Below are positions 31,236 through 43,806 of a stretch of DNA of 64,000 nucleotides, in pieces. Made by a program: the position numbers and the translations under genes. Below the pieces are notes generated by a model. The model saw only the letters and a list, made by a program, of their open reading frames with translations. It was not told the DNA's origin and ran no database searches. This DNA is from an uncultured Pelagibacteraceae bacterium (GTDB lineage: Bacteria; Pseudomonadota; Alphaproteobacteria; Pelagibacterales; Pelagibacteraceae). The DNA lies in assembly GCA_902557935.1 (NCBI GenBank), contig CACECJ010000001.1:186001-250000 (forward strand), in the 5' to 3' direction. The stretch's first letter is position 1, and every line of letters begins with the position of its first letter.

Positions 31236-31245
31236 GAAAAATATT

Positions 31246-31284
31246 AAAAAGGCCTAGTGATTATTCACTAGGCCTTTTTTTTTT
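31246..31284 (+). terminator. rho-independent terminator between binding-protein and permease genes
   Basis: GGCCTAGTGA (31251-31260), a 4-base loop TTAT, and the perfect complement TCACTAGGCC (31265-31274) are followed by ten T and preceded by five A. It lies between the receptor gene and the permease. It probably lets most transcripts end after the receptor gene, so that the receptor is made in excess over the membrane components. The A/T flanks also make it potentially bidirectional. Confidence 0.9.
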
Positions 31285-37176: not shown

Positions 37177-38622
37177 ATGTACGAGAAATTTGGTCAGTTT
37201 ATTGACGGTAAATGGCAGCAATCATCGAGTGGTGAGACTTATGAAGTAATTAATCCCGCCACAGAAGAAATTATTGGTAGAGCATCTAAAGCAAATAGTA
37301 AAGACGTTCAAAGAGCTCTTAAGTCAGCTCAAAAAGGATTAGAAATTTGGAAGAATACTTCACCTTGGGAAAGGTCAAAAGTTATTAGAAAAATTTCTGA
37401 GCTTATGAGAAATAAAGTTGATACGTTATCAAAATGGCTTACTTTGGAAGTTGGTAAACCTTTATCTGAAGGAGCTGGAGAGGTTGGTGGTGCAGCCGAC
37501 ATATTTGAGTGGAATTCTGAAGAAACAAAGAGAATTTTTGGTGAAATAAACCAAAGTCGTTTTCCTAATACGAAAATACACGTAATATATCAGCCTGTAG
37601 GTGTAGTAGCAGCATTAGTGCCTTGGAATTTTCCAGTCATTTTAGCTGCGAGAAAAATATCAACAGCTCTTGCTGCGGGATGTTCTGTAATAGTAAAACC
37701 TGATGTAATAACGCCCGGTAGTGTTATGGAGATTGTAAATATTTGTAAGGAAGCAGGTGTTCCTGATGGAGTTGTTAATCTATTATCTGGAGATCCAGCA
37801 GCTATTTCATCTGAATTAATTCAGTCAGATATAATAAAAAAAATTTCTATCACAGGATCTACAAGAGTTGGTAAATTAATACTTAAGCAGGCCGCTGATA
37901 AAGTTCAAAGAGTAACAATGGAATTAAGTGGTCATTCACCATTTATAGTCTTTGATGATGTAGATTTAAATAAAGTTACTGACATGGCTATTACAGCGAA
38001 ATTTAGAAATAATGGTCAGGTTTGTATTTCTCCTAACAGATTTTATATACATGAAAAAAAGAAAGATGAATTTGCTAATTTAATGGTGGAAAAAACAAAA
38101 AAATTAAAAATTGGAAATGGTATGGAAAAAGATACTTTATTAGGGCCGCTATGTACAAAAGAAAGACTTGAAGGAGTGGAAAAATTAGTTGAAACAACAA
38201 AAAAAGAAGGTGGAAAATTATTATTAGGTGGAAAAAGAGCTGCAAATTTTAATAAAGGTTATTATTATGAACCAACTATTTTTGATGACATAAAAGATAA
38301 TTTTACTGTAATGAGAGAAGAGCCTTTTGGTCCAATTGTTCCTATTTTAAGCTTTAAGGATTTTGATGAAGTTATGACTAGAGCTAATAACAATGATTTA
38401 GGTTTAGCAAGTTATGTATATACAACAGATCTTAAAAAAGCTAATCAAGCCTCTGAGAAATTAGAAACTGGTTGTGTAGCGGTTAACACACCAGTAGTAG
38501 CAGTGGCAGAAGCTCCTTTTGGAGGAATAAAACAAACTGGTTATGGTCGAGAAGGCGGATCAATGGCCATAAAAGATTATTTAAATATTAAATATACTCA
38601 TTTTGGAATTTCTTACGAATGA
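37177..38622 (+). CDS. NAD(P)-dependent aldehyde dehydrogenase
   Basis: The 481 aa protein belongs to the ALDH superfamily. It has QFIDGKWQQSSSGETYEVINPATEE, PVGVVAALVPWNFPVILAARKI, ITGSTRVGKLI, the catalytic-Glu segment VTMELSGHSPFIVFDDVD and the catalytic-Cys segment NNGQVCISPNRFY. EEPFGPIVPI and PFGGIKQTGYGREGG follow. It resembles succinate-semialdehyde or aldose-type dehydrogenases rather than CoA-acylating MmsA/IolA. It is divergent from iolD and overlaps the aldolase gene by 4 bp, so it probably acts in the same catabolic route on a sugar acid semialdehyde. Confidence 0.93.
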   Translation: MYEKFGQFIDGKWQQSSSGETYEVINPATEEIIGRASKANSKDVQRALKSAQKGLEIWKNTSPWERSKVIRKISELMRNKVDTLSKWLTLEVGKPLSEGAGEVGGAADIFEWNSEETKRIFGEINQSRFPNTKIHVIYQPVGVVAALVPWNFPVILAARKISTALAAGCSVIVKPDVITPGSVMEIVNICKEAGVPDGVVNLLSGDPAAISSELIQSDIIKKISITGSTRVGKLILKQAADKVQRVTMELSGHSPFIVFDDVDLNKVTDMAITAKFRNNGQVCISPNRFYIHEKKKDEFANLMVEKTKKLKIGNGMEKDTLLGPLCTKERLEGVEKLVETTKKEGGKLLLGGKRAANFNKGYYYEPTIFDDIKDNFTVMREEPFGPIVPILSFKDFDEVMTRANNNDLGLASYVYTTDLKKANQASEKLETGCVAVNTPVVAVAEAPFGGIKQTGYGREGGSMAIKDYLNIKYTHFGISYE

Positions 38623-39410
38623 GAAAAAATAAGTTGAAAGAAATTTTTAAATCAGGAAAAGCAGCTGTAAATGGTTGGCTTCAGATCCCAAATTCTTTTA
38701 CTGCTGAATTAATGGCTAATCAAGATTGGGACTCTTTAACATTAGATATGCAACATGGTGTAATAGATTATCCTAATGCCGTTGGTATGTTACAAGCTAT
38801 ATCAACTACAAAGGTTGTTCCAATGGCTAGAGTAAATTGGAATGAACCGGGACAAATAATGAAAATTCTAGATGCGGGTGCATATGGAATTATTTGTCCG
38901 ATGGTTAGCAATAAACTTGAGGCAGAAAAATTCGTAAAAGCCTGCATGTATCCACCTAAAGGTTACAGAAGTTACGGACCTATCAGAGGACTAGTTTACG
39001 GTGGTCCAGAATATGCCGATGAAGCAAATAATGAAATATTAAAATTTGCAATGATAGAAACTAAAGAGTCTTTAGAAAATTTAGATAACATAATGAAAAC
39101 TCCTGGGTTAGATGGTATTTACATAGGTCCTGCTGATTTAAGCTTAGCTATCGGTGAAAAACCAAGTTTTGATAAACCAGAAGGAGACCCGGTGTATGAA
39201 GTAATAATGAAAATTTTAGAGCATGCAAAGAAAAACAAGATTATAGCTGGTATTCAAAACGGGCAGCCTGAATATGCGGAAAAAATGATTAAAAAAGGTT
39301 TCCAACTAGTAACTATAGGATCAGATCAAAGATACATGACCGCGGCTTCAAAATCAGCATTAGGAAAATTAAAAAAAAATCAAAAAGAAGACACAGGAAA
39401 AGGTTACTAA
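38619..39410 (+). CDS. HpcH/HpaI family class II aldolase
   Basis: These metal-dependent aldolases cleave 2-keto-3-deoxy sugar acids or related compounds to pyruvate and an aldehyde. The 263 aa protein has NGWLQIPNSFTAELMANQDWDSLTLDMQHG with the catalytic His, VPMARVNWNEPGQIMKILDAGAYGIICPMV with the active-site Arg, the metal ligand Glu in FAMIETKESLENLD, and Asp in GIYIGPADLSLAIG. It follows the aldehyde dehydrogenase gene with a 4 bp overlap. The exact substrate is not deducible from sequence alone. Confidence 0.91.
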   Translation: MRKNKLKEIFKSGKAAVNGWLQIPNSFTAELMANQDWDSLTLDMQHGVIDYPNAVGMLQAISTTKVVPMARVNWNEPGQIMKILDAGAYGIICPMVSNKLEAEKFVKACMYPPKGYRSYGPIRGLVYGGPEYADEANNEILKFAMIETKESLENLDNIMKTPGLDGIYIGPADLSLAIGEKPSFDKPEGDPVYEVIMKILEHAKKNKIIAGIQNGQPEYAEKMIKKGFQLVTIGSDQRYMTAASKSALGKLKKNQKEDTGKGY

Positions 39411-39416
39411 ACTTGA

Positions 39417-39665
39417 ATGAAATTCCATGTTTATATGCTCAAATCTTTGGGCAAAAAGCCAATAACTTATGTAGGTTATACAAATAATCTTAAAAAAAGA
39501 ATCTCTCTTCACAATAATGGAAAAGGTGCAAAATTTACAAGAGGAAGAAAATGGAAGCTTATCTATAAAGAAAAGTTTACCTCAAAAAATAAGGCAATTT
39601 CTAGAGAATATTATATAAAGAAAAATAGGATTTTAAGAAATAAAATTAAACTAAAGTATTTATGA
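39417..39665 (+). CDS. GIY-YIG domain protein (UPF0213/YhbQ-like)
   Basis: The 82 aa protein is a stand-alone GIY-YIG nuclease-type domain. It has VYMLKS as the degenerate first strand, TYVGYTNNLKKRISLHNNGKGAKFTRGRKWKLIYKEKF, with the YVG(Y) strand and conserved Arg, and the Glu-containing ISREYYIKK. Related small proteins are widespread and poorly characterised; some have nuclease activity. It sits 6 bp after the aldolase and overlaps the glycosyltransferase gene by 4 bp. Confidence 0.88.
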   Translation: MKFHVYMLKSLGKKPITYVGYTNNLKKRISLHNNGKGAKFTRGRKWKLIYKEKFTSKNKAISREYYIKKNRILRNKIKLKYL

Positions 39666-41776
39666 AAATTTCAATTTTACTACCTTATAAAGAAAATTTT
39701 TCTCCAGTCTATCCAGGTGCGGTGTCAATTTTTTTAAGCTCAGTAATTAAAAAAAGTAAATATAAGAAAAATATAACAGTATTTGGAAATACAAGTTTTA
39801 AAGAAAAATATAATATAAAATATAAAAATATTAATATTTCTAAAAAGATTATGGGTCTGGGAAGCCAAACCTCAAAATATATTAATAATTTTATTAAATT
39901 AGAAAACGTTAGGCCTTCAAATATAATTGAAATACACAACAGGCCAACATATGTTCAGCTTTTACCAATAAATAAAACCAAGAAAATTCTTTATTTTCAC
40001 AATGATCCACTTAGTATGGCAGGATCTAAAACACTGAGCGAAAGACTTACACTTTTAGATTTATGTTCGAAAATTATTTTTAATAGTGAGTGGTCAAAAA
40101 ATAGATTTTTAACAGGCTTAGATGAAATTTATACAAAATCACCCAAATTAATAGTAATCCGCCAAAGTGCTGATAAACAAACTGTTAATATTTTAAAAAA
40201 AGAAAAAGTAATTACATTTGTTGGAAAGTTAAACAGGGCAAAAGGATATGACGTTTTTGGATCAGCGATTATTGATGTTCTTAAAGATTATAAAGACTGG
40301 AGGGCAGTAGTTATTGGTGATGAAGAAAGAGAAAAAATAGATTTTAAACATGATAGATTAAAAATATTAGGTTTTAAGAAACATAACGAAGTTATAAAAA
40401 TTTTTAAAAAATCGAGTATTTCTGTTGTTTGTTCAAGATGGGAGGAGCCTTTTGGTAGAACAAGTCTTGAGTCAGGGAGTTGTGGTTGTGCAGTAATAAT
40501 TACTAATAGAGGTGGTTTACCTGAAACAATTACTAATGGGGTTATTTTAAATAATTTATCAAAAAGATCAGTTTATGACTCCATAGTAAAATTAATTAAA
40601 AATAAAAAATTCAGACGTGAAATTCAAAACCTATCTTTAAAAAATTTTAATCTTACTCATAAAAATGCTTCTATACAAATTGACGCCTATAGAAATGAAA
40701 TATTGAATAAAGATAAAATATTAAAAAAATCACAAAAGTTAAAAATTTTACATGTAACAAATTTCAATGAAAGGCATAATGGACGATTATTCTATAATAC
40801 AGGAAAGAGAATAAATAATGGGTTTGTACGATTAAATCATAGTGTACTAGAGTTTAGTGATAGAGATATCGTCAGTTATTATAGAAAAATAAATGATTTT
40901 GATGGCTCAAAAAAACTTAATAAAAAATTTATTGAGGTTATAAGCAATTACTTACCAGATGTGATTGTTTTCGGTCATGCTGATTTAATTAAAAGAAATA
41001 CAATACAATTTATAAAAAAAACTTATCCAAATATAAAATTTTGTCAGTGGTTTTTAGATAGAATGGACTCTAAATGGATAAAAAATTTGAATAGATTTGA
41101 ACATAAATTTGATTTAATGGATGCAAACTTTTGCACAAGTGATCCAAAAAGTTTCTCCAAAAAACAAAACAAACCTATTTTTTATATTCCAAATCCAGTA
41201 GACGAGTCTTTTGAAAAACTTAAAAATGATCAAAATAGTTATCTTAATAATGATGTGTTCTTTGCGATGAGCCATGGTGTGCACAGAGGTGTTCTTAAAA
41301 AAGGAAAATTTGATGAAAGAGAGGTATTCATTGAAAATTTGAAAAAACTTACGCCAGATATAAAATACGATCTATACGGCATGGATAATAATCAACCTGT
41401 ATGGGCTGATAATTTTATTAATAAAATTTCCAAATCGAAAATGGGGCTTAATTTAAGCCAAGGAAGAGCCGCTAAATATTATAGTAGTGATAGATTCGCA
41501 CAATTGATAGGAAATGGTCTTTTGGTTCTAGTAGATGAAAAAACCAAATTTAGTAACTTTTTATCTAAGAATGAAATTGTTACTTATAAAAATTTAAAGG
41601 ATTTAGCCAATAAAATTATTAAATTTAATAAAAATGACAGATTAAGAAAAAAAATAGCCAAAAAAGGTAGAATTAAGTATCACCGATATTTTAATTCTAA
41701 GATTATTGCCGAATATATATTGAATAAGACGTTAAAAATTAAAACACGAAAATATTATTGGGAAAATAAAATTTAA
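39662..41776 (+). CDS. two-domain glycosyltransferase (GT4-like plus CgeB-like)
   Basis: The 704 aa protein appears to be a fusion. Residues ~1-350 are a GT-B fold of the GT4 type, with ITFVGKLNRAKGYDVFGSAI, SVVCSRWEEPFGRTSLESGSCGCAVIITNRGGLPET and a conserved E-x7-E arrangement. Residues ~360-700 are a second GT-B-like unit related to CgeB/Glyco_trans_1_2: KILHVTNFNERHNGRLFYNTGKRINNGF, then MGLNLSQGRAAKYYSSDRFAQLIGNGLLVLVDE. It probably acts in surface polysaccharide synthesis; sugar specificity is unknown. A GT2 gene follows after 3 bp. Confidence 0.85.
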   Translation: MKISILLPYKENFSPVYPGAVSIFLSSVIKKSKYKKNITVFGNTSFKEKYNIKYKNINISKKIMGLGSQTSKYINNFIKLENVRPSNIIEIHNRPTYVQLLPINKTKKILYFHNDPLSMAGSKTLSERLTLLDLCSKIIFNSEWSKNRFLTGLDEIYTKSPKLIVIRQSADKQTVNILKKEKVITFVGKLNRAKGYDVFGSAIIDVLKDYKDWRAVVIGDEEREKIDFKHDRLKILGFKKHNEVIKIFKKSSISVVCSRWEEPFGRTSLESGSCGCAVIITNRGGLPETITNGVILNNLSKRSVYDSIVKLIKNKKFRREIQNLSLKNFNLTHKNASIQIDAYRNEILNKDKILKKSQKLKILHVTNFNERHNGRLFYNTGKRINNGFVRLNHSVLEFSDRDIVSYYRKINDFDGSKKLNKKFIEVISNYLPDVIVFGHADLIKRNTIQFIKKTYPNIKFCQWFLDRMDSKWIKNLNRFEHKFDLMDANFCTSDPKSFSKKQNKPIFYIPNPVDESFEKLKNDQNSYLNNDVFFAMSHGVHRGVLKKGKFDEREVFIENLKKLTPDIKYDLYGMDNNQPVWADNFINKISKSKMGLNLSQGRAAKYYSSDRFAQLIGNGLLVLVDEKTKFSNFLSKNEIVTYKNLKDLANKIIKFNKNDRLRKKIAKKGRIKYHRYFNSKIIAEYILNKTLKIKTRKYYWENKI

Positions 41777-41779
41777 TTA

Positions 41780-42619
41780 ATGTTTTCAATTCTTATTCCA
41801 ACTTTAAATAACTTTAAATATCTTAAATTAAGCATTGAAAGTATTAAAAAAACTTCCTCATTAAATAATGAATTATTAGTTCATGTAAATGAAGATCAAG
41901 AAAATGTTTCTAGAAATTACCTTAAATCAATGAATATATCATTTACGTATTCTGAAAAAAATATTGGTCTTTGTTCATCAATAAATCTAATTGCTAAAAA
42001 AGCAACAAAAGATTATTTGATATATTCTCACGATGATATGTATTTTTGTCCTGACTGGGATAAATTTTTAATGGATGAAATTAAAGCCTTAAATCATAAA
42101 AATTTTTATTTATCCGGATCAATGATAGAACCTTACTCAGGTCATATTGTTTATAATTGTGGAGAAACTATAGAAACCTTTAACGAAAAAAAACTCTTAG
42201 ATAACATAAAAAATTTAAATATATCAGATCATCAAGGATCACACTTTGCTCCTCATTGTGTTCACAAAGATATTTGGAATAAGGTAGGTGGTTTTAGCGA
42301 AGAATTTAATCCTGGAATAGGTTCTGACCCAGATTTTAATATGAAGCTATGGAGTGAAGGTATACGTATTTTTAAAGGGTTAAGTAATTTCAAAGTTTAT
42401 CATTTTGGCTCTATAACCACTAGAAAAAAAAAGAGTCTTAAAATGAATAGAGGGGACAAAACTTTTCTCAAAAAATGGGGTATATCAGTAAAATTTTTTA
42501 AAAAATATTATTTAATGTCAAAAACAAAATACGAAGGTCCTTTAAAAGGGCCTAAGATTAGTTTCAAATACTTTTTTGAACTACTACTTTGTAAATTAAA
42601 ATCAAAAATTACATTTTAA
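41780..42619 (+). CDS. GT2 family glycosyltransferase
   Basis: The 279 aa protein has the GT-A fold start FSILIPTLNNFKYLKLSIESI, NIGLCSSINLIAKKATKDYLIYSHDDMYF with the metal-binding DxD (HDDM), and a later FNPGIGSDPDFNMKLWSEG (ED-like acidic motif). KVYHFGS lies near the end. It has no membrane segment. Together with the upstream two-domain enzyme it forms a small glycan-synthesis cassette. The 3' end overlaps the convergent recombinase gene by 11 bp. Confidence 0.88.
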   Translation: MFSILIPTLNNFKYLKLSIESIKKTSSLNNELLVHVNEDQENVSRNYLKSMNISFTYSEKNIGLCSSINLIAKKATKDYLIYSHDDMYFCPDWDKFLMDEIKALNHKNFYLSGSMIEPYSGHIVYNCGETIETFNEKKLLDNIKNLNISDHQGSHFAPHCVHKDIWNKVGGFSEEFNPGIGSDPDFNMKLWSEGIRIFKGLSNFKVYHFGSITTRKKKSLKMNRGDKTFLKKWGISVKFFKKYYLMSKTKYEGPLKGPKISFKYFFELLLCKLKSKITF

Positions 42620-43562
42620 TTTTACTTAATGCATTATTTTTAAATATATTTGCTTCTTTGATATATCTTCTTACCATTTGAGTTGTTTTGTGTCCTGTCA
42701 TAGCCATTATACTTCTTTCGTCAGCACCAGACTCAGCTGCTGCCGTAGCAAAACCAGATCTTAAACTATGGCCAGAAAAATTTGTATTTTCTATTCCAGC
42801 TAATCTTAAGCATTCCTTGATTATTAAAACAACTGATTGATCTGTTAATCTATGTTTAGTAAGTATTGCACCTTTTGCAAACCTTCTAAATATCGGTCCA
42901 TTTTTTATTTTTGATAAATTTAACCAATTTTTCAAACTTGTAACCGGGCAATATTTTTCATTTGAAAAGTAGGGCAGACCTTTGGTCATACCTTCTCCGA
43001 ATTGATCTGTTTTAGACCTTCTAAGAGTTATTTTTACTCCTTCTTTAACAAAATCTATATCTTCATAATCAGTCGAAATTAATTCTGTTCTTCTAAAACC
43101 TCCGCCAAAACCTATAAGTATTACAGTTCTATTCCTTAATTTTTTAATTTTTTCTACTTTTTGATCATCTATAACATCAATTATTTGTTTTAAGTGATTG
43201 ATTAATATCGGTTTTTTACCTGATTGAATGGTTCCTTTTTTTCTTTTAATCCCCATTAAGTTCTCGATAATAATTGGATGTTTTGTATCTAAGTAATGAC
43301 CTTTAAGCTTATGAACCATGCCTATAGAAACTAATCTACGTCTTATCGTGCTAATTTTAGAACTAGCTGATAGATGTGTTAGGTATAAAGATACAACTTT
43401 AGGTTCTGTTGGAATTGAGTTAAACCCATGTTTAGCACAAAATACTCCAAAGTCTTTAAAATCAGATTTATAAGCTCTCAGCGTATTATTTGCTTTTGAT
43501 AACTTGAGGTTGCTTAAAGTATCTTCATGAAGCTTTTTAAGATCTGTTACTAAATCATTCAT
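42609..43562 (-). CDS. Cre-like tyrosine site-specific recombinase
   Basis: The 317 aa protein is a tyrosine recombinase. The N-terminal SAM-like DNA-binding domain has KANNTLRAYKSDFKDFGVFCAKHG...EPKVVSLYLTHLS...STIRRRLVSIG. The catalytic domain supplies Arg I in GFGGGFRRTELI, the Lys in LRRSKTDQFGE, the HxxR box in FSGHSLRSGFATAAAESG, a second His in MAMTGHKTTQMVRR and the nucleophile Tyr in RRYIKEA. The full catalytic set is present. The overall plan resembles P1 Cre more than XerC/D. A 16-7-16 inverted repeat starts at its initiation codon. Confidence 0.93.
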   Translation of the reverse strand: MNDLVTDLKKLHEDTLSNLKLSKANNTLRAYKSDFKDFGVFCAKHGFNSIPTEPKVVSLYLTHLSASSKISTIRRRLVSIGMVHKLKGHYLDTKHPIIIENLMGIKRKKGTIQSGKKPILINHLKQIIDVIDDQKVEKIKKLRNRTVILIGFGGGFRRTELISTDYEDIDFVKEGVKITLRRSKTDQFGEGMTKGLPYFSNEKYCPVTSLKNWLNLSKIKNGPIFRRFAKGAILTKHRLTDQSVVLIIKECLRLAGIENTNFSGHSLRSGFATAAAESGADERSIMAMTGHKTTQMVRRYIKEANIFKNNALSKIKM

Positions 43563-43599
43563 ATTACTATTGATAACTTTTAATTATCATTAGTAATAT
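43561..43599. repeat. 16-7-16 bp inverted repeat at the recombinase start (lox/dif-like candidate)
   Basis: Left arm 43561-43576 (ATATTACTATTGATAA) and right arm 43584-43599 (TTATCATTAGTAATAT) are complementary at 15 of 16 positions. They flank a 7 bp spacer (CTTTTAA). The inner arm ends ..GATAA / TTATC.. resemble the inner ends of Xer dif sites. The repeat begins at the second base of the recombinase start codon and covers its 5' leader. It could be the recombination site, an operator, or both. Confidence 0.6.
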
Positions 43600-43614: not shown

Positions 43615-43806
43615 ATGTCAATACATATAATTTTAAAGTTAATGATTAAATTTATTCTTCCCCTAGTAGTATTTATAGCTGCTGTTTACGGAATTTCGTA
43701 TTTCTGGACTAACTCAAGCTCGAAGGGCAAAAAAATGATAGCTCTAGGCTTAATAATAGGCCTTATAGTGGGCATATCTTTAACAACTTACCTGATTTTT
43801 GACTGA
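43615..43806 (+). CDS. small two-helix membrane protein
   Basis: I do not recognise this 63 aa protein with confidence. It has two hydrophobic helices (FILPLVVFIAAVYGISYFW and MIALGLIIGLIVGISLTTYLIF) joined by a polar SSSKGKK loop, an arrangement like small alphaproteobacterial DUF-type inner-membrane proteins. A second ATG at 43642 would give 54 aa and is an equally plausible start. The stop overlaps the ogt start by one base, so the two genes are coupled. Confidence 0.6.
   Translation: MSIHIILKLMIKFILPLVVFIAAVYGISYFWTNSSSKGKKMIALGLIIGLIVGISLTTYLIFD

Follow-up and report, generated by a model that had tools for sequence, protein, structure and literature searches.

Carnoy and Roten, 2009 (PMC2731167) describe Pelagibacter ubique as being without a dif/Xer system, ask how such cells handle chromosome dimers and remark that evidence for Cre/lox-like replacements is lacking. 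Could a single tyrosine recombinase gene with an inverted repeat at its start codon be what these cells use instead? We addressed this question at a locus within a stretch of 64,000 nucleotides (hereafter the window) from a Pelagibacteraceae (SAR11) genome of 0.93 Mb, which is assembled in 36 contigs and 83% complete. The features concerned are:

42609..43562, minus strand: Cre-like tyrosine recombinase gene, 317 aa (open reading frame; Pfam Phage_integrase, 6.8e-21), the proposed chromosome-dimer resolvase.
43561..43599, no strand: dif/lox-like inverted repeat of 16-7-16 (arms 43561-43576 and 43584-43599), predicted to be a recombination site and probably also an operator.
43572..43588, plus-strand reading: core GATAA-N7-TTATC (GATAA 43572-43576, spacer 43577-43583, TTATC 43584-43588).

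An earlier note on this DNA had read the gene as a complete Arg-Lys-HxxR-His-Tyr recombinase of the Cre-like kind, and both parts of this reading held. The catalytic set is intact, with Arg157, Lys184, His265-x-x-Arg268, His291 and Tyr300 invariant in all 30 aligned sequences, the window's included. When the AlphaFold model of the SAR11 enzyme (mean pLDDT 87.4) was compared with PDB chains by Foldseek, the best 32 were Cre or engineered Cre variants (TMq 0.70-0.83); integron integrase and XerH ranked below Cre (TMq 0.55-0.68), and XerH is thus not the closest fold match. Nine SAR11 enzymes form one group in the tree (support 82/78), beside plasmid, viral and Cre sequences and apart from the XerC/XerD sequences of the sister family (branch 2.81, support 100/99). 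The tree contains no XerH sequence, support is low at many of its inner forks and the branch of P1 Cre is long; at the Xer split, the program flags a meeting of long branches. With these reservations, fold and sequence grouping both place the enzyme among the Cre-like plasmid recombinases.

The window enzyme reaches the cut-off of none of the four models of other recombinases: it scores 71.4 bits against the XerD NCBIfam equivalog model (cut-off 329.6), 58.6 bits against the XerC equivalog (335.15), 34.6 bits against NCBIfam XerS (267) and 38.4 bits against the integron integrase model (265). On the NCBIfam cut-offs and the position in the tree, an orthologue of XerC or XerD was rejected. As for a defence gene, PADLOC returned only a weak match to Csm5 (17.1 bits), which was discarded.

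The inverted repeat is present at the start codon as the earlier note had described it, with 15 of 16 arm positions pairing across a 7-nt spacer, and its first two bases belong to the start codon itself. A cognate site close to the gene is one mark of a Cre-like plasmid recombinase, and here the repeat abuts the start codon. In 60 second-order Markov simulations of the window, 16-7-16 repeats of such quality arose at a mean of 0.03 per 64 kb, and at 0.28 per 64 kb when any spacer of 0-15 was admitted. The scan of the window for comparable repeats, which had been left undone, returned only one other, a terminator-like palindrome at 31245-31280. This palindrome is near-perfect, has a T-rich end and is probably a terminator. 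An RNA element was considered and rejected, as nothing in the window but tRNAs reaches the Rfam gathering score. Allowing up to 3 mismatches, the window's genome (83% complete) contains a single copy of the repeat.

We then asked whether the two arms change together among relatives. GATAA-N7-TTATC was found in 176 of 178 upstream contexts, with 49 unique 35-mers; some genomes contribute several contexts, and these duplicates fall away in the set of 49. The two contexts without the core belong to one genome (G017) in which the start was set wrongly; they were excluded from the covariation analysis, and the site is present there. One locus (L183) was too short for the count. Arm positions 1-5 and 9 are invariant among the unique sites. 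Four further positions pair beyond all 500 shuffles: position 6 in 43/49 sites (12 changed on both sides; highest shuffle 37), position 7 in 33/49 (3 changed on both sides; highest 26), position 8 in 49/49 (19 changed on both sides; highest 37) and position 10 in 29/49 (14 changed on both sides; highest 28). Pairing at positions 11-14 does not exceed the shuffles in these 49 sites. Therefore, as judged from the aligned sites, the element under pairing constraint is closer to 10-7-10 than to 16-7-16, and its paired arms of about 10 bp are close to the 11-bp arms of dif.

Kinship alone can lift pairing above shuffles, so the strongest point is the wholesale change of arms between two site types. 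In the type-2 sites (G005, G009 and G040), TTCCGATAA-N7-TTATCGGAA replaces TTACTAATGATAA-N7-TTATCAATAGTAA, with both arms changed. Enzyme and site type do not match everywhere: the G022 enzyme falls in the type-2 clade and the G022 site is type-1-like. The spacer is TTAATTG or TTAATGG in 44 of the 49 unique sites. The window's own spacer, TTAAAAG (43577-43583), occurs in 1 of the 49, which is expected if it is mainly the identity of the spacer with itself that matters.

Gene and site are both widespread in the family. The recombinase was matched in 230 of 297 family genomes (E <= 1e-20) and in 111 of the 127 that are at least 90% complete, with one match per genome in all of the 230 except G034 (two). 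No match was obtained in 67 of the 297, 16 of them at least 90% complete; these absences are ascribed to fragmented assemblies, which has not been shown. The earlier note had named two outcomes to look for, retention of the repeat in relatives that keep the recombinase and second copies elsewhere in the genome, and both checks were run. Among 16 genomes chosen for having the gene, 13 contain the site (up to 3 mismatches) exactly once and beside the gene, and the remaining three (G005, G009 and G040) have the compensated version; the reversed-pattern control of this search was positive in 1/16 genomes (G004). Relatives retain the repeat. In a wider search of 397 genomes, a 19-base core was found in 282 (117 of the 140 at least 90% complete), and among the matches listed its copy number was 0 or 1 and the reversed-pattern control 0, with no second core. 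The window's genome counts as zero there because of its TTAAAAG spacer. Among the matches listed, the element thus has the form of a short palindromic site with arms of about 11 bp and a spacer of 6-8 bp, one per chromosome.

We compared the surroundings of the gene at 80 loci, 60 with full and 20 with cut flanks. The 5' ogt-like gene (window 43806) lies beside the recombinase in 80/80. On the 3' side, the glycosyltransferase (window 41780) was matched in 42/80 and a gene further on (39662) in 64/80. The 3' flank (window 38619-42619) is variable among relatives.

A dif-like function makes a prediction about position. From the recombinase match list we took 11 single-contig genomes, and for this reason the presence of the gene in them is no test; seven were used for skew, with the maximum sought within 100-125 kb either side of the site. 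The cumulative GC-skew maximum lies 0.6 kb from the site in G003 (over a contiguous 240 kb), 1.1 kb in G005, 1.5 kb in G035, 1.8 kb in G078, 2.1 kb in both G009 and G022 and 2.4 kb in G040, that is, within 0.6-2.4 kb in 7/7 genomes, as a terminus site requires. In the 64-kb window the distance is 1.0 kb. A coarse whole-genome skew of G003 (20 pieces of 6 kb each) peaks at the 723-kb piece, which is consistent. The distance from dnaA to the site is 0.418-0.486 of the genome in 7/7 genomes and, computed by hand, 0.430 in G017, 0.458 in G026, 0.487 in G043 and 0.436 in G063. The position of the site is that expected of dif. No clear KOPS-like octamer was found in G003, where the polar octamers are A-rich and GGGNAGGG occurs twice in 240 kb.

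The canonical partners of dif were sought order-wide in 248 genomes with a minimum completeness of 85. No Pelagibacteraceae genome in this set has a match to the XerD model over 87 bits. In the sister family, an XerD-like match of 307-326 bits is found in 18/18 genomes and a second match of 244-258 bits in 16/18. The curated XerD cut-off of 329.6 is passed by 0/248 genomes, the sister-family matches falling narrowly short, so the names XerC and XerD rest, for that family, only on how strong and how many the matches are. In 16/16 Pelagibacteraceae genomes chosen for having the gene, the best match of the XerD model is the SAR11 recombinase itself, with none reaching the cut-off, and two of them (G009 and G017) have a second, weaker tyrosine recombinase. 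FtsK-gamma is found in 12/12 genomes (scored for presence only); in the window's genome, the stop codon within the match marks the normal end of the gene.

On this evidence we propose that the single Cre-like recombinase and its dif-like site constitute the chromosome-dimer resolution system of the Pelagibacteraceae, in place of XerC, XerD and dif, with a probability of roughly 0.84. There are no activity, binding or genetic data, and binding, strand exchange, activation by FtsK, autorepression and the direction of capture are inferred. Two monomers would bind the arms of about 10 bp that flank the 7-bp spacer. On a dimeric chromosome with two copies of the site, FtsK at the septum would gather the copies at the terminus, where a tetramer would exchange strands at the arm/spacer junctions and release two monomeric chromosomes. 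Since the site extends over the -10 region, the start of transcription and the leader to the ATG, free enzyme would also repress its own gene. As to ancestry, a recombinase and site of the plasmid multimer-resolution type are proposed to have been captured by the chromosome.

The predicted autorepression rests on a promoter that overlaps the site:

43616..43621, minus strand: -35 box of the recombinase promoter, TTGACA (111/112 rows have TTGAC 31-34 nt upstream of GATAA).
43593..43598, minus strand: likely -10 box TATTAC, at 17-nt spacing and inside the outer arm (from the sequence and the 112-row consensus).

A consensus promoter scan did not call this conserved promoter, which came from comparing relatives. 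The remaining part of the site makes up the leader, as far as the ATG. Because the site spans the conserved promoter from its -10 region to the start codon, a role as operator is plausible in the absence of binding data; with the -10 box in the outer arm and the leader inside the site, autorepression by bound enzyme is likely, and we infer that the SAR11 recombinase probably represses its own gene.

The same overlap raises the possibility that the repeat is only an operator, bound by the recombinase or by another dimeric regulator, with recombination taking place elsewhere or not at all. The conserved TTGAC in 111 of 112 rows and a repeat that ends at the start codon would both suit this reading, which we nevertheless consider unlikely. 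The inner ends, ATAA-N7-TTAT, have the anatomy of a recombination site, the site sits at the skew switch, and no other copy exists among the matches listed. In plasmid relatives the distance of a similar upstream site ranges from 51 to 1241 nt, a variation for which an operator has no need. Pelagiphages have the site too, as described below, even though a tblastn search at 1e-5 gave no match to the SAR11 enzyme in any Pelagibacter phage record. We retain the reading of a recombination site that is probably also an operator.

Where the enzyme came from was examined through its relatives. Of 386 genomes of the class, 27 gave a match to the family profile at 1e-25, and five of these 27 belong to the family itself. 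Plasmid records matching the enzyme at 1e-5 number 3283, the best among those listed being 44% identical (Alicyclobacillus acidocaldarius), and the ten that we examined, drawn from the best 15 of the 3283, are 36-44% identical to the SAR11 enzyme. Within a search that covered 386 class genomes, viral contigs, phages and plasmids and left the chromosomes of other phyla outside, the nearest relatives beyond the family are plasmid integrases. Nine of the ten plasmid relatives carry, no more than about 1.5 kb upstream, a site whose inner ends are ATAA/TTAT and in which at least 9 of 11 arm positions pair. Over all 115 relatives such an upstream site occurs in 22, against 0.15 expected from mononucleotide shuffles: 7 of 25 alphaproteobacterial, 6 of 80 viral-contig and 9 of 10 plasmid relatives. 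Frequent arms in these relatives are ACTTCCGATAA and ATGTCCGATAA, and the SAR11 type-2 arm is TTCCGATAA. The alphaproteobacterial relatives with an upstream site are L236, L238, L239, L240, L245, L246 and L253; L238 and L240, on contigs of 4.2 and 3.7 Mb, could represent additional captures by chromosomes. That the repeat is the enzyme's target, one of the inferences in the earlier note, is supported by conservation, covariation, the skew-switch position and the matching sites beside plasmid relatives, in the absence of binding or recombination data.

The abundance of relatives on plasmids and viral contigs also admits a recently acquired mobile-element integrase that sits at the terminus by chance. 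We regard this as very unlikely, since all nine SAR11 enzymes group together in the tree (82/78), the gene is single in all but one of 230 genomes, its 5' neighbour is fixed at 80/80 loci, the site lies at the skew switch in 7/7 genomes, and the family is without a match of XerCD strength. Single copy, fixed 5' neighbour, terminus position and the failure to find XerCD likewise bear out the suggestion, made before any relatives had been compared, of a domesticated chromosomal system. It is no more tenable that the gene is an integron- or island-type integrase inserting cassettes beside itself and so creating the variable 3' flank; we give this reading still less credence. The glycosyltransferase is indeed matched at 42/80 loci against 80/80 for the ogt-like gene, but the site is on the conserved 5' side, the further 3' gene recurs at 64/80 loci, and the 38.4 bits of the integron integrase model are far from its cut-off of 265. 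The lack of a second core, among the matches listed, further means that there is no insertion bounded by sites. A chance palindrome, which the 29% GC of the window might favor, is refuted by the expectation of 0.03 per window and by retention with covariation in 49 unique sites. A captured pair serving dimer resolution thus remains the preferred reading.

The core also occurs in phages. Scanning 2.9 million viral contigs for it returned 29, of which 17 encode an HTVC035P-like terminase (L257-L259, L261-L263, L266, L267, L269, L270, L272, L273, L276-L278, L282 and L283). The core is upstream of terL in 17/17, at a distance of 464-613 nt in 14 contigs and 1217-1302 nt in 3; together they represent 10 distinct site contexts, and L277 is without the right outer arm. 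The other 12 contigs have no terL match, and some may be chance. A profile search that finds both P1 Cre and the SAR11 enzyme found no tyrosine recombinase on the available parts of the 29 contigs or on complete HTVC035P. For the viral contigs this is weak evidence because most of them are short.

Among 12 cultured pelagiphages, 6 have GATAA-N6/7-TTATC in the 400 nt upstream of the small gene that precedes terL (0.03 expected), and 9 have it when one change is allowed (0.66 expected). HTVC035P, included in these counts, had been identified through the site itself; leaving it out gives 6/11 and 8/11, respectively. HTVC010P, Skadi-5 and HTVC028P have neither a strict nor a one-change site. HTVC100P (L461) carries two tandem sites before the small gene preceding terL, and Greip (L464) has type-1-like arms with a 6-nt spacer. 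In HTVC035P (L453) a dif-like site stands before the small gene preceding terL, with a spacer unlike the host's. Six phages account for the seven strict sites, and none of these sites has the host spacer TTAATTG or TTAATGG.

The location of these sites upstream of terL suggests use of the host enzyme by the phages. A related terL is present in 5 of 297 SAR11 genomes, and GATAA-N6/7-TTATC precedes terL in 0/5 over the stretch examined, two loci ending at contig ends; in G123 the string occurs inside terL and is taken as coding chance. Prophage integration at the terminus was not seen in these five genomes, with the same two loci cut. Since the phage spacers are unlike the host's and no site was seen before terL in those five SAR11 genomes, we favor multimer resolution by the host enzyme over integration of the phage, both being inference. 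The wider proposal, in which a plasmid-type Cre-like pair replaced XerCD/dif for dimer resolution in SAR11 and the site upstream of terL in HTVC010P-type pelagiphages serves to let the host enzyme resolve (or integrate) the phage genomes, has in our estimate somewhat better than even odds.

A single recombinase with a linked dif-like site is a known kind of system. P1 Cre serves in multimer resolution. The SAR11 pair resembles Cre/lox of phage P1 and the Cre-like plasmid recombinases in fold, family placement and site layout; unlike Cre/lox, it is chromosomal, at the replication terminus and family-wide, with FtsK-gamma in the same cells. According to the 2016 eLife paper on XerH (PMC5241119), the Cre system is without an analogue of FtsK activation. 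With XerC/XerD-dif it shares the inferred task, the skew-switch position and the inner ATAA/TTAT arm ends, and it differs in having one enzyme instead of two, far under the XerC/XerD cut-offs and separate in the tree. One recombinase acting with one site, often beside the gene and at the terminus, is likewise described for XerH/difH of Helicobacter and Campylobacter (PMC5241119) and for XerS/difSL of streptococci and lactococci (Carnoy and Roten, 2009). The SAR11 enzyme is of another recombinase lineage than XerH and XerS, given the Foldseek preference for Cre and the 34.6 of 267 bits for XerS, and its spacer is 7 where PMC5241119 gives 6 for difH. What appears to be new is the recombinase lineage, the overlap with the promoter and the host group. 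We found no earlier report of the SAR11 system in the literature searched; that the phage site has been described before cannot be ruled out.

The abstract of PMC12753301 describes SAR11 as the group of marine microorganisms with the highest abundance. With an enzyme and a site of 35-39 bp now named, the question of how its cells deal with chromosome dimers becomes directly testable. The site offers a landmark for the terminus of SAR11 genomes, and the short core motif may link uncultured phages to SAR11 hosts. If the proposal is true, a plasmid stability module would have become the chromosome-segregation module of a whole family.
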